A DNA stretch of 64,000 bases from Larkinella humicola (lineage in GTDB: Bacteria; Bacteroidota; Bacteroidia; Cytophagales; Spirosomataceae). Made by a program: the position numbers and the translations under genes. The stretch lies in assembly GCF_008727875.1 (NCBI RefSeq), contig NZ_VTWS01000006.1, forward strand, positions 434,001 through 498,000. The letters are read 5' to 3'. Positions 817-57,640 of the stretch are shown here, in pieces. Under the pieces are notes generated by a model that worked only from the letters and a program-made list of their open reading frames with translations, was not told where the DNA came from and ran no database searches. The stretch's first letter is position 1. Every line of letters starts with the position of its first letter.

Positions 817-957
817 ACTTCATTATTCGTTACCGCGCGGGCGGCCCCGTCATTATTTAATATTCGACATTTAACTACTTGATAAAAAACGACTTAAGAA
901 TAAATATCGAACACTGAATATTGACGGGGCCGCCCGCGCGGTAACGAATAATGAAGT
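817..957. repeat. 36-bp perfect inverted repeat with GC-rich core
   Basis: Arms at 817-852 and 922-957 are perfect reverse complements around an AT-rich 69-bp centre. Each arm contains a 16-bp GC word (CGCGCGGGCGGCCCCG at 834-849). It fills the gap between the M81 gene and the SMP-30 gene, and the right arm touches the M81 stop codon. It may act as a strong hairpin that attenuates or terminates transcription. The GC word recurs near 55.6 kb. Confidence 0.9.
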
Positions 958-53420: not shown

Positions 53421-55076
53421 ATGATAACCAAGAATAAGAGCTCAGTAAAAACAAAGAATTACGCAGGCCTGTCACCGCAGGAATATACAACGCTTGTCTT
53501 TTTTTCTATTTTATATACAATTAAAAAGCTGCCATTCATTTTATACAATGGTCAAATAAATCCTGATGAAAGCCAAATGCTAACACAGGCAATTACGTTA
53601 AAATTTGATCCAATATTTTGGCGATCAGTTGATGGAACTACCAGTGGACCAATTAATAGCTATATAATTCTTTTATTAAAATATGCAGGATTACCATTTA
53701 ATTACTTAACTCTTCATGCCACAGCTACAGGACTAGTCATTTTTTCATTATTCATTACATACCTTACATTAAGGCTATTCAACACTATTAAAGTTTCATT
53801 TTTAAGCATCATAATTATATACAGTTTTTTTTTCTTCACCAATCATAATGATTTTAACCATTATAACAGTGAATTACCTTCATTTTTTTTAATTACTTTA
53901 GCTATTTACATATTAGCTTATACATATCATAATAAAAAAATACCAATATATTTATATATTTTATTTAGTATTATTTGCTGCTTAATACCTTTCGCAAAAT
54001 TGCAAGGAGGGCCGCTTGCCATTCTATACTTATTGTATGAGTTTTTTATTATATTAAAAAGAAAATTAAATAAAACAGCAGCTATTGTTGGCCTTGGCAG
54101 TGGAATGGTAATTGTGGGAGGATCTTTATTGGCATATTTATTTTATAATAATATAATATACGATTTCTATATAATGTATATCAAAACCAATTTAAACCAC
54201 TATAATGTGGGAGATCCATTTAGTTTATTTATTAAATTAATATTCAAATCGTCTTACGACTATTTATTTTTTTTAATTTACAACATTATAATATGGTCAA
54301 CTTTCCCCATAGTTATAAGCAAAAAAAATTATTCATATCTTATATATAAAGATAATGTATTCATATTTTTATCAATAAACATTGTAGTTTCTTACATAGT
54401 TGTTACTCGCACAGGCTATACTTTTGAACATTATTTATTCTACACGCTTTTTCCCATCACCTTACTCACATCACATATGCTAAGCCATATCTTTGAGTAC
54501 CGTGACATTAAAAAATACACTTTTCCAATAGTAAGTATAATGATGACTGGATTATTCATCGGCCTTGTTACCGTGCATATATTAAAGTATAATAGGAAAA
54601 ATCAAAATTTCAAGAGATTTGAACTTGCACAACATGAAATTAATGTTATCAAATTAATTAATTACTACACTAAACCAACTGATTGCCTCGTCGTATGGGG
54701 ATGGAATTTGACTTATCATACTCTTACCGGATTAAGGCAAGGTACTCGAGAAAATCATTCCATACGATGCATGACGACTAACTCTTTAGGCGCTATCCAT
54801 GACCCTTATCTTATTGAATATTATTGCCATCAATATGTAAATGATATCAAACGGAATCGACCTGCTGTGTTTATAGATGAAGTTAAAATGAATTCAATTT
54901 TTAAGGACCCTAATTTGGTTGCACACCAAACAATTCCAGATTTAAGAAATACCATTATGACAAACTACACACTAATAGACCAGCAAGCAGGGGTTTTAGT
55001 GTATGTAAGAAAAGACATATTGAAAATTCGGGGGAAACTGAATTTGGGCTTGCAAAAATATGGTAGAAATTTTTAA
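53421..55076 (+). CDS. GT-C-like multipass membrane protein
   Basis: This 551-aa protein has about 10-11 membrane helices up to residue 400 and a soluble C-terminal domain of about 150 residues. An Asp-Glu pair in the first loop (NPDESQ, D49-E50) fits the catalytic loop of GT-C glycosyltransferases of the PMT/ArnT type, which use polyprenyl-linked sugar donors. Codon use is extremely AT-rich. The C-terminal domain (DCLVVWGWN, TGLRQGT, HSIRC) is clearly homologous to the truncated gene at 57085-57640. Transferase function is inferred, not shown. Confidence 0.75.
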   Translation: MITKNKSSVKTKNYAGLSPQEYTTLVFFSILYTIKKLPFILYNGQINPDESQMLTQAITLKFDPIFWRSVDGTTSGPINSYIILLLKYAGLPFNYLTLHATATGLVIFSLFITYLTLRLFNTIKVSFLSIIIIYSFFFFTNHNDFNHYNSELPSFFLITLAIYILAYTYHNKKIPIYLYILFSIICCLIPFAKLQGGPLAILYLLYEFFIILKRKLNKTAAIVGLGSGMVIVGGSLLAYLFYNNIIYDFYIMYIKTNLNHYNVGDPFSLFIKLIFKSSYDYLFFLIYNIIIWSTFPIVISKKNYSYLIYKDNVFIFLSINIVVSYIVVTRTGYTFEHYLFYTLFPITLLTSHMLSHIFEYRDIKKYTFPIVSIMMTGLFIGLVTVHILKYNRKNQNFKRFELAQHEINVIKLINYYTKPTDCLVVWGWNLTYHTLTGLRQGTRENHSIRCMTTNSLGAIHDPYLIEYYCHQYVNDIKRNRPAVFIDEVKMNSIFKDPNLVAHQTIPDLRNTIMTNYTLIDQQAGVLVYVRKDILKIRGKLNLGLQKYGRNF

Positions 55077-55421: not shown

Positions 55422-55502
55422 GGGGCCGCCCTTTAGGTTTGAGGGTTGGTAAGAAACCAAGATTGGGTAGCTTGCCAACCCTCAAACCTAAAGGGCGGCC
55501 CC
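55422..55502. repeat. 28-bp perfect inverted repeat with GGGCGGCCCC end
   Basis: Arms at 55422-55449 and 55475-55502 are perfect complements (outer end GGGGCCGCCC, inner part TTTAGGTTTGAGGGTTGG). It abuts the stop codon of the IS3 orfA remnant. The outer GC word is shared with the repeat at 817-957. Confidence 0.9.
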
Positions 55503-55590
55503 GTTAAAGTTTTTTTTTGAGTACGTCTTGTAGCATCTGCTTATCTAAACTCAGGTCGGCTACGAGTTGCTTCAGTTTCTGATTTTCTTC

Positions 55591-55606
55591 GGCACCGGCC
55601 GCCCGG
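55591..55606. repeat. 16-bp GC-rich insertion 3 in the IS3 orfA remnant
   Basis: GGCACCGGCCGCCCGG (plus strand) separates codons for LRQLE and EENQKL. Its removal restores the OrfA frame. Confidence 0.75.
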
Positions 55607-55661
55607 CTCCAACTGTCGAAGGTTTCGTAGTTCTGGAACCCCTAAACCAGCGTACTTCTTC

Positions 55662-55677
55662 CACGCGGGCGGCCCCG
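55662..55677. repeat. 16-bp GC-rich insertion 2 in the IS3 orfA remnant
   Basis: CACGCGGGCGGCCCCG (plus strand) interrupts the codons for YYNWKKKY. It matches 15 of 16 bases of the word at 834-849. Confidence 0.75.
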
Positions 55678-55772
55678 TTCCAGTTGTAATAGGTAGCCTC
55701 GCTGACTCCCATCTTCCGGCAAACTTCCGCCACAGGTACACCAGTGTCAGCTTGACGCAGGGCAAAAATGAT

Positions 55773-55788
55773 GGCTCGGGCCACCCCG
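55773..55788. repeat. 16-bp GC-rich insertion 1 in the IS3 orfA remnant
   Basis: GGCTCGGGCCACCCCG (plus strand) separates codons for FIEAQ and IIFAL. Its removal joins them in frame. Confidence 0.75.
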
Positions 55789-55892
55789 TTGTGCTTCGAT
55801 GAACTTCGTCTTTTTCATGAGCGATTTTGGATTATTTAAGTTATCAAAATCGCCCGAATTTCTCTACTTGTTCACTGTCCAGTTTTTAGGGC

Positions 55893-57058
55893 CAAGGTCA
55901 CATTCAAGACTTCCCCATCCGTGATAAACGAGTTTTTATTCATATTAAACGTCGTCGCTCGCCACCGTGGCGCGGTTAAATTCCAGGACGGGTCAAATCC
56001 AGCAAAGGAATTGGTCCCAGGTAGCCCAGGGAACGCGGATGACGAAAGAATTCGCGGATTTTTTAAAAGAGATTGACGGATTTATTCCCCCACAGTACCA
56101 GTACCCGGGGTCGTTTATATGGCGTTAATGGGAAACGCTTATCAGCTCAATACCGCACCCATTTGAGCCATTTTCAAAACTGGTCCCAGCGAGGCCACGC
56201 TAAACAGTGGCTGCTCTACCCTCAAAACCTGGGCACGTATCTGTCGATTGATGAGACGTCACTTTCGCAAGGTGAGTTGTATACGATTCTAACTAATAAA
56301 GCGTCAAAAGGCCAAAAGGGCAGTATTGTGGCCATTATCGCTGGAACAAAAGCGGAAACGGTGATCGCTATTCTACGGAAAATTCCCGAAAAGCTTCGTA
56401 AAAAGGTCGCCGAAATTACCTTGGATATAGTGGGCAATATGGCGCTGATTGCCAAAAAATGCTTTACCCAAGCCACCCAGGTCACCGACCGGTTCCATGT
56501 CCAGCAATTAGCCCTGGAAGCCGTCCAGGAGATGCGTGTCCAGTACCGGTGGCAAGCCCTGGAGGCAGAAAATGAAGCCCTTGAACAAGCCAAAGCCACT
56601 CAGAGCGCGTATGAGACGGAAGTGCTTTCCAATGGCATACGCTCAAACAACTGCTGGCTCGCAGCCGGTATGTGCTTTATAAAAAATCGGGTGATTGGAC
56701 TGACAGTCAACGGGAACGGGCGGCTTTGCTTTTTGATCACTACCCTGATCTAAAGAAAGCCTATGATTTCAGTCAAGCCCTCAGTCACATTTTTGAGAAT
56801 ACGACCGATAAACTTTATGGCTTAGCACGGCTGGCAAAGTGGCATGAAAAAGTCCGACAGTGCGGTTTCAAGGCCTTCAACACGGTGGCCCTTTCCATTC
56901 AGAACGATTATGAGACGATTCTCAACTACTTTGACAACCGCAGCACCAATGCGTCGGCCGAATCCTTTAATGCCAAAATCAAAGCCTTCCGAGCCCAATT
57001 CAGAGGGGTAAGAAATGCGGAGTTTTTCCTGTACCGATTAACCCAGTTATATGCTTAA
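55893..57058 (+). pseudogene. ISAon1/ISL3-like transposase remnant, frameshifted
   Basis: The first part (HIQDFPIRDKRVFIHIKRRR, then LNSRTGQIQQRNWSQVAQG and FADFLKEIDGF) is the N-terminal-region protein of this IS type. It lacks its start and is broken at 55960-55973 by a 14-bp GC palindrome. The DDE transposase part runs from about 56100 (YGVNGKRLSAQYR, LSIDETSL with a catalytic Asp, DRFHVQQLALEA) and is broken by a likely 1-bp deletion near 56636 (NG then DTLKQ expected). The second frame then continues to NASAESFNAKIKAFR, which holds the terminal Glu, and ends at 57058. The frame change near 56100 may be the family's normal two-frame layout. Confidence 0.8.
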
Positions 57059-57084: not shown

Positions 57085-57640
57085 TTGATCCGGTATAAAT
57101 CAGATTCTGAAGTCGGAATGCGATCACGGATATCCCTACCGGACAACAGTCATTCTCACCACAGGTTTGCTCCTGGGTTCTACTGGAGTGTACTTCTTAA
57201 AGCTTCCCAGGAAAAACCAAAATTTCACAATGGTTTCAGCTCCCTTGCTTGAAACACGAATCCTCGGTCTAATCAAAAAGTATTCAAAACCAACCGATTG
57301 CCTGGTCGTCTGGGGGTGGAATATGCGGTATCATACCCTAAGCGGATTGAGACAGGGCACGAAAGAAAATCACTCAATCCGATGTATGGAAACGAATTCA
57401 TTAGGCACGATTCATGACCCTCAACTCATTGCCTATTACGGTCGGGAGTACGTAGATGACCTGAAACGAAACAACCCTTCCGTCTTCATCGATGAGGTAA
57501 AAGCAAACCGTTTTTTTGAGAATCCCGAATGGGTTATACACCAAAAAAATCCAGCGCTAAAACAGGTTATTGCCGATAAGTACCGGTTGTTGACACAAGA
57601 ATCCGGCGTTTCGGTTTACGTACGCAAAGATCTTTTGTAG
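57085..57640 (+). pseudogene. Truncated paralogue of the GT-C-like membrane protein (C-terminal end)
   Basis: The frame is homologous to the C-terminal end of the 53421-55076 protein from its last membrane helix onward: RKNQNF, DCLVVWGWN, GLRQGTKENHSIRC, NSLGTIHDP, FIDEVKAN and YVRKDLL all align in order. The 5' part is missing where the transposase remnant ends. In contrast to the other copy, the GC content is like the host genome. It is most likely a gene cut by insertion or by deletion between insertion sequences. A GTG/ATG-started fragment could still be translated. Confidence 0.8.

Follow-up and report, generated by a model that had tools for sequence, protein, structure and literature searches.

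The window, the whole stretch of 64,000 nucleotides that was analysed, contains an IS3-type orfA remnant on the minus strand that is broken by three 16-bp elements and is adjoined at its end by an inverted repeat, with an inverted pair of related elements placed between positions 834 and 940. The features are listed below, with the element types (T1 to T5) as defined further on.

55504..55818, minus strand: IS3-type orfA remnant (HTH_Tnp_1) broken by three 16-bp elements (Pfam and alignment)
55591..55606, minus strand: block 1, type T5 element, CCGG-GCGG-CCGG-TGCC in the minus-strand reading; site empty in copies L002 and L003, filled in L028
55662..55677, minus strand: block 2, type T1 element, CGGG-GCCG-CCCG-CGTG in the minus-strand reading (alignment of IS copies)
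55773..55788, minus strand: block 3, type T4 element, CGGG-GTGG-CCCG-AGCC in the minus-strand reading (alignment of IS copies)
55422..55502, no strand assigned: inverted repeat of 81 bp, two 37-nt arms 92% complementary, adjoining the orfA end
834..849, minus strand: T1 element (CGGGGCCGCCCGCGCG), pattern match in the window
925..940, plus strand: T1 element (CGGGGCCGCCCGCGCG), inverted partner of 834-849

The remnant length of 315 bp corresponds to 88 codons, a stop codon and three blocks of 16 bp. A PF01527 match (E 1.1e-9) is found in one of the two orfA frame pieces, the other piece being without a Pfam match. Each arm of the adjoining inverted repeat terminates in a truncated T1 core (GGGGCCGCCC), so that the core is present at both sides as if another repeat had cut the unit, and pieces related to this inverted repeat occur at C4:40704-40762 of the same genome, which comprises 7.86 Mb in 20 contigs and holds the window at 434001-498000 of contig C17. 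Beside the orfA remnant, at 56073-57058, inspection by eye suggests a further transposase remnant of a different kind, spread over two frames. The 551-aa ORF at 53421-55076 and a partial downstream ORF at 57167-57640 have a common stretch (also by eye), which would place the IS remnants between a long and a truncated copy of one gene.

The window orfA was aligned with 17 copies, namely two paralogs from the same genome, 13 of 21 matches in relatives (the remaining eight, short or terminal, being excluded) and two of nine plasmid records. An uninterrupted natural OrfA of 88 amino acids is present in L032, L039 and L041; L032 and L039 are insert-free throughout the IS, with orfB frames of 276 and 333 amino acids, respectively, and L041 has inserts in the orfB part. 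Filled and empty sites differ by precisely 16 bp. The block 1 site, in addition to being filled in L028, has variant forms in L029 and L030. The block 2 site carries T1 also in L003, L029 and L042 and, beside a deletion, in L031, is occupied by a different 16-mer, T2, in L002 and L028, and is empty in L032, L039, L041 and L051. The block 3 site is filled in L030, L031 and L040, decayed in L033 and empty in L002, L003, L028, L029 and others. About five recurrent sites in orfA carry such 16-bp GC-rich blocks in a mosaic across the copies, and one block may be found at different sites, as shown by T2, which lies close to the start codon in L048 but occupies the block 2 site in L002.

These copies from the same genome and from relatives, with their sites empty or filled and an open OrfA frame in three of them, confirm the claim of an earlier note on this DNA that three insertions of 16 bp interrupt the frame. 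The same note took the three insertions to be independent events; since block 2, and to a lesser extent blocks 1 and 3, are present in other copies, independence in the window copy is not required. The open 88-aa frames rule out that the blocks are ordinary OrfA sequence, although several copies share them, and an assembly artefact is ruled out by the presence of the same 16-mers in many genomes.

In a set of 26 IS loci (84 kb, all-against-all gap search, double-counted places merged), most of which were picked by similarity to window positions 55490-55900 (411 bases, 48 of them belonging to the blocks), inserts of at least 13 bp occur at 33 places with a modal length of 16 bp at 26 places, 15 bp at four, 17 bp at two and 13 bp at one. 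This agrees with the earlier view of one size class and not ordinary decay. The GC content is at least 80% at 21 of the 26 places with 16-bp inserts. DNA of the same genome sampled blind to the blocks (813 kb, including the window) has inserts of at least 12 bp with lengths of 12 bp (two), 13 bp (one), 15 bp (two) and 16 bp (three), the 16-bp inserts all being GC-rich and one of them being block 1 of the window; none of the nine inserts found in 400 kb of genome G033 is 16 bp long. Across all loci, a set enriched for blocks in which some places are counted at two lengths, there are 48 inserts of 16 bp (42 of them GC-rich), nine of 15 bp and three of 17 bp. In genome G014 an IS3-type orfB recognized by eye (L182, 266-1250) has a long frame that is clean save for one unit near the 3' end, suggesting a young insertion, and no empty counterpart of this IS was found in the G014 genome.

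The 16-bp unit has the consensus xyGG-nCCG-CCy'x'-TGCG, composed of a 4-bp stem, a 4-nt loop and a 4-nt tail, with a variant of 15 bp; in other subfamilies the tail is TGCC or AGCC. In the common orientation the types are as follows.

T1: CGGG GCCG CCCG TGCG
T2: GCGG TCCG CCGC (T/C)GCG
T3: ACGG TCGG CCGC TGCC
T4: CGGG GTGG CCCG AGCC
T5: CCGG GCGG CCGG TGCC
T5c: CCGG TCCG CCGG TGCG

A perfect 4-bp stem is formed at 25 of 41 distinct 16-bp insertion sites, several of which are the same site in different copies, compared with 8.5% of shuffled 16-mers; the imperfect stems have three pairs at 11 sites (T3 included), two pairs at three, one pair at one and none at one. Among repeated GC-rich 16-mers with distinct flanks in the 813 kb, both strands counted, 16 have a stem of 4 and a loop of 4, compared with 1, 1, 3, 3 and 0 for loops of 3, 5, 6, 2 and 8, respectively. 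The stem also covaries. A pattern with the inner stem fixed, both outer pairs free and a first base other than T was run on 20 genomes, and its matches exceed the control in G016 (67 versus 6), G033 (44 versus 7), G052 (44 versus 15), G069 (27 versus 1) and the genome of the window (20 versus 9), being barely over the control in G003 (15 versus 12) and under it in G023 (6 versus 10). In the 150 copies listed from five of these genomes both outer pairs form, with G-T allowed, in 71% compared with 34% when the 3' sides are permuted (0/5000). Because copies are related, covariation is more safely judged from distinct 16-mers, and here both outer pairs form in 13 of 30 compared with 17% permuted (1/5000). 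The outer pair types include C-G, G-C, A-T and T-A, and an outer A-C mismatch is present in 23 of the 150 copies.

Identical units occur in unrelated contexts. A search of the 813 kb for repeated GC-rich 16-mers finds dispersed units with distinct flanks, the 16-mer CGGCAGCGGCCGACCG for example having four copies, and pattern matching gives 24 units in this DNA. Matches to the T2/T3 pattern are found in 38 of 99 relatives, with counts against a reversed control of 26 versus 0 in the genome of the window, 55 versus 0 in G033, 45 versus 0 in G016 and 28 versus 0 in G052. The T1 core is matched in 44 of the 99 relatives, with 127 versus 0 in G014 and 29 versus 4 in the genome of the window; it exceeds the control in all nine members of the genus and is at or below the control in some other relatives (G011 5 versus 7, G031 5 versus 14, G088 20 versus 39). 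A 24-mer made up of T3 and its inverted-repeat flank is found in 15 stretches, which include Larkinella punicea (11), L. terrae, Spirosoma oryzae, S. profusum and one Cytophagales MAG. The units are found in one family, which from the named carriers and a Spirosoma plasmid match we take to be Spirosomaceae, and in one outlier, G052, which belongs to another bacterial family and is the only such genome with units in the sample. A phylum-wide element is ruled out by the near-control level in 391 genomes beyond the family (32 matches compared with 22 for the control, none with more than four per genome; the phylum was sampled with 395 genomes, G052 not among them). The GC skew of 20 samples of G033 is not clean enough to place the replichores.

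The blocks in the window are therefore read as copies of a family of gene-less mobile DNA elements of 16 bp, with a 15-bp variant, a reading to which we assign a probability of roughly 0.8-0.85; a 16-bp hairpin is perhaps among the smallest mobile elements known. The evidence for movement is comparative, in filled and empty sites. Identical 16-mers recur across genera and in two families, which argues that the element is copied and that the words are not made on the spot, and we infer that the units move by being copied. The earlier suggestion of a process that adds GC-rich hairpin words to DNA is accordingly borne out in part, with the words themselves being templated elements. Since identical units at unrelated places need a template elsewhere, untemplated addition is unlikely, and the local generation of GC hairpins by replication slippage or template switching is scarcely credible, as the same 16-mers at unrelated sites and in different genera require a distant template; slippage could nevertheless explain the exact 16-bp period of the tandem arrays formed in G014 by the unit CGGGGCCGCCCGTGCG, which also breaks the orfB of L182 (by eye).

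A target preference is evident in the bases that follow the unit. The 166 contexts reduce to 108 groups with unrelated flanks, a few of which are chance matches, as illustrated by the L111 pattern match in an open frame (by reading). Base +1 is G in 86% and base +2 is T in 70% of the contexts. For T1 these values are 98% and 80% of 45 contexts, and for T3 base +1 is G in 21 of 21; the ends of T2, which are ambiguous by one base, were placed so as to allow a following G. T1 in its 15-bp form (CGGGGCCGCCCGGCG), with the end taken at 15 bp, has GT next in seven of eight contexts. T4 and T5 have five contexts only, with A next in four of them. No target duplication is present at the filled and empty pairs examined. 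The tail alone is not taken to set the target, as T3 and T5 have one tail but different targets.

The contexts comprise IS orfA and orfB, intergenic inverted repeats, tRNA remnants, other intergenic DNA and exact tandem arrays. An intergenic inverted repeat holds T3 within its arms, either in a single arm or mirrored in the two (L162, L163, L168 and L173), and these T3 units in inverted repeats form 19 contexts in one group. Empty arms are common, with 11 exact copies of one arm 16-mer in the 813 kb. In six of the 30 loci L092 to L121 (L097, L099, L102, L103, L115 and L118) the unit is embedded in a sequence resembling a T-arm, and ARAGORN predicts a tRNA no more than about 200 bp away. The most closely examined of the six, L102, has a partial tRNA-Pro copy with T3 placed before GTTCGAA and an intact tRNA-Pro without T3 at 1603-1677. 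At a contig end of G015 (L103, 1-240) a tRNA-Ala fragment is repeated in tandem every ~54 bp, each copy with a T2 unit. In G033 (G033:C1, for example 1627130-1627208) many T2 units form inverted pairs ~50-110 bp apart around variable short inserts, an arrangement that is REPIN-like. The footprint of a larger excised element was rejected as an origin of the units, since by eye no common interior lies between paired units, the T3-bearing inverted repeats apart.

These contexts bear on two further explanations. In one, a single ancestral insertion into an IS or repeat spread together with its carrier and is now immobile, as could be suggested by the several IS copies filled at the same sites and by T3 at the same arm position in many inverted repeats. 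As the sole explanation this is improbable given the 108 unrelated contexts (a few being chance matches), the tRNA remnants in several genomes and the one site that carries different blocks; some of the spread may nonetheless have occurred by hitch-hiking, T3 having multiplied together with the inverted repeats. In the other, the host marks or kills mobile elements by means of hairpin words. Three IS3-type remnants account for thirteen of the 24 units in the 813 kb, counting those at their edges (six at C5, four at C8 and three in the window), those at C5 being placed within 1.35 kb (L061, 1344-2676) among pieces matching rve, HTH_32 and rve_3, with an HTH_Tnp_1 match below the cut-off. A defence of this kind, and with it the earlier proposal of a process directed at mobile elements, is very improbable, as the same units are present outside IS, both in tRNA remnants and in intergenic DNA with or without inverted repeats, so that IS copies look like tolerant targets, and relaxed selection would account for the IS excess.

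For the family of mobile elements the mode of movement is considered at lower confidence. Conservation of the fold suggests that the unit moves as a single folded strand of either DNA or RNA. We put at slightly less than even odds the proposal that the 16-bp hairpin is its own transposition unit, and as such the smallest mobile DNA element known, being moved in trans as a folded single-stranded nucleic acid by an enzyme of this bacterial family, with a target dinucleotide for each subfamily (GT for most T1 to T3, AT or A for most T4 and T5). In the more general and better supported reading as a mobile family, a copy inserts precisely, without target duplication, usually directly 5' of GT (3' of AC on the other strand), with the T4 and T5 subfamilies mostly being inserted before A. 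Units interrupt reading frames as readily as tRNA remnants and intergenic repeats, and they persist where selection against them is absent, which is why dead IS copies gather them.

In IS200/IS605 elements a Y1 transposase excises a single strand and inserts it 3' of a short target, and the anatomy of the unit appears compatible with this Y1/HUH chemistry. A trans-acting Y1/HUH enzyme acting on the hairpin as single-stranded DNA is a candidate, although a doubtful one, suggested by the likeness of the tag and hairpin, the lack of duplication and the insertion 3' of AC to what is known of IS200/IS605 and REP. Of similarly doubtful standing is the explanation that the units are REP-like palindromes, composed of tag and hairpin, that are moved by a RAYT, an IS200-derived Y1 transposase. 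A tag, CGCA, GGCA or GGCT, is present at the 5' foot of the GC hairpin on one strand, the inverted pairs ~50-110 bp apart are found in G033, and Y1_Tnp genes are present in all eight genomes searched, which parallels the tagged GC hairpins, inverted doublets and Y1-bearing hosts of REP/REPIN-RAYT systems as far as the excerpts of PMC3116915 and PMC3733652 describe them. However, REP are extragenic and, according to PMC3733652, 20-40 bp long and tagged by GTAG or CGTC, whereas the units are 15-16 bp, have neither tag and are intragenic, being placed in transposase frames; and in the portion of PMC3116915 drawn on here, excision is reported for REP doublets and not for single REP, whereas here single units insert. 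In addition, no unit is present in 81 kb around 26 Y1_Tnp loci of the eight genomes. About 2.4 units would be expected there from the density of 24 in 813 kb, so finding none argues against linkage and no more. There is thus no support for a RAYT linked to the units, and one acting in trans may be responsible. Some Y1_Tnp genes (L247, L154 and L236) lie amid short repeats of their own, such as a 14-mer present 12 times in L247, that are unlike the 16-bp units.

Somewhat less probable again is an RNA route, in which the unit is transcribed and then reverse-transcribed into DNA. The stem covariation is the trace expected from an RNA or single-stranded DNA fold, so that single-stranded DNA explains it equally, and RNA-mediated movement has been argued for the yeast mitochondrial GC42 cluster (PMC4478555, in the part of that paper used here). 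The units resemble the yeast GC clusters as portrayed in that part of the paper (PMC4478555), being GC-rich gene-less mobile hairpins with a dinucleotide target and unit merging, and differ from GC42 as given there in that the latter is 42 bp long, is located in an organelle and has AG target nucleotides in two sets, the 16-bp units being without duplication. Compared with MITEs, which have terminal inverted repeats and a target duplication, no duplication is present at the filled and empty sites examined. The double-hairpin elements of Allomyces are likewise GC-rich mobile hairpins without genes. Rickettsia palindromic elements, of ~100-150 nt, are also palindromic insertions within genes and lie in frame, whereas a single 16-bp unit shifts the reading frame.

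Among known repeats the nearest counterparts are the small dispersed repeats (SDR) of heterocystous cyanobacteria, which, as reportedly described by Elhai and colleagues in 2008, are gene-less and 21-27 nt long. The SDR families are said to differ in sequence and to have one secondary structure with compensatory changes, and SDR reportedly occur inside minitransposons and heptamer tandem repeats and as nested or tandem copies, within one cyanobacterial subgroup; an RNA-mediated spread has been proposed for them. The 16-bp units are similarly gene-less, very short and dispersed in 108 unrelated contexts (with a few chance matches), their subfamilies differ in sequence with one fold and compensatory changes, T3 is embedded in the arms of intergenic inverted repeats, and nested or tandem copies are present. 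Unlike the 21-27 nt SDR they are 16 bp at 26 places, 15 bp at four and 17 bp at two, and unlike the cyanobacterial repeats they occur in Bacteroidota as a GC hairpin with a 4-nt tail and a GT target, frequently in IS reading frames. Very small mobile repeats were therefore already known when the earlier note supposed that the process might be undescribed, and for the 16-bp hairpin family itself no account was found in the literature, among open-licence papers only.

To our knowledge, how gene-less repeats of slightly more than 20 bases move has been an open question since the cyanobacterial SDR were described. The 16-bp family is an independent and smaller case from another phylum, and its exact ends, target rule, filled and empty pairs and a genome with more than 100 copies make the mechanism testable in named bacteria, with Larkinella punicea, L. 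terrae, Spirosoma oryzae and S. profusum carrying one subfamily. The units also account for certain frameshifts seen in the IS remnants, and certain breaks seen in the tRNA remnants, of the carrier family. The parallel to SDR may extend to heptamer repeats, a heptamer flank being present at seven of 30 T2-selected G033 units compared with 0.7% of 3000 random positions, and at none of 24 units in unselected DNA under a stricter test (0/20 from the genome of the window and 0/4 from G033). A period of 7 is the commonest tandem period in the sampled DNA, with 75 of 353 arrays in the sample of the genome of the window and 58 of 290 in that of G033 (L052-L091 and L253-L272).
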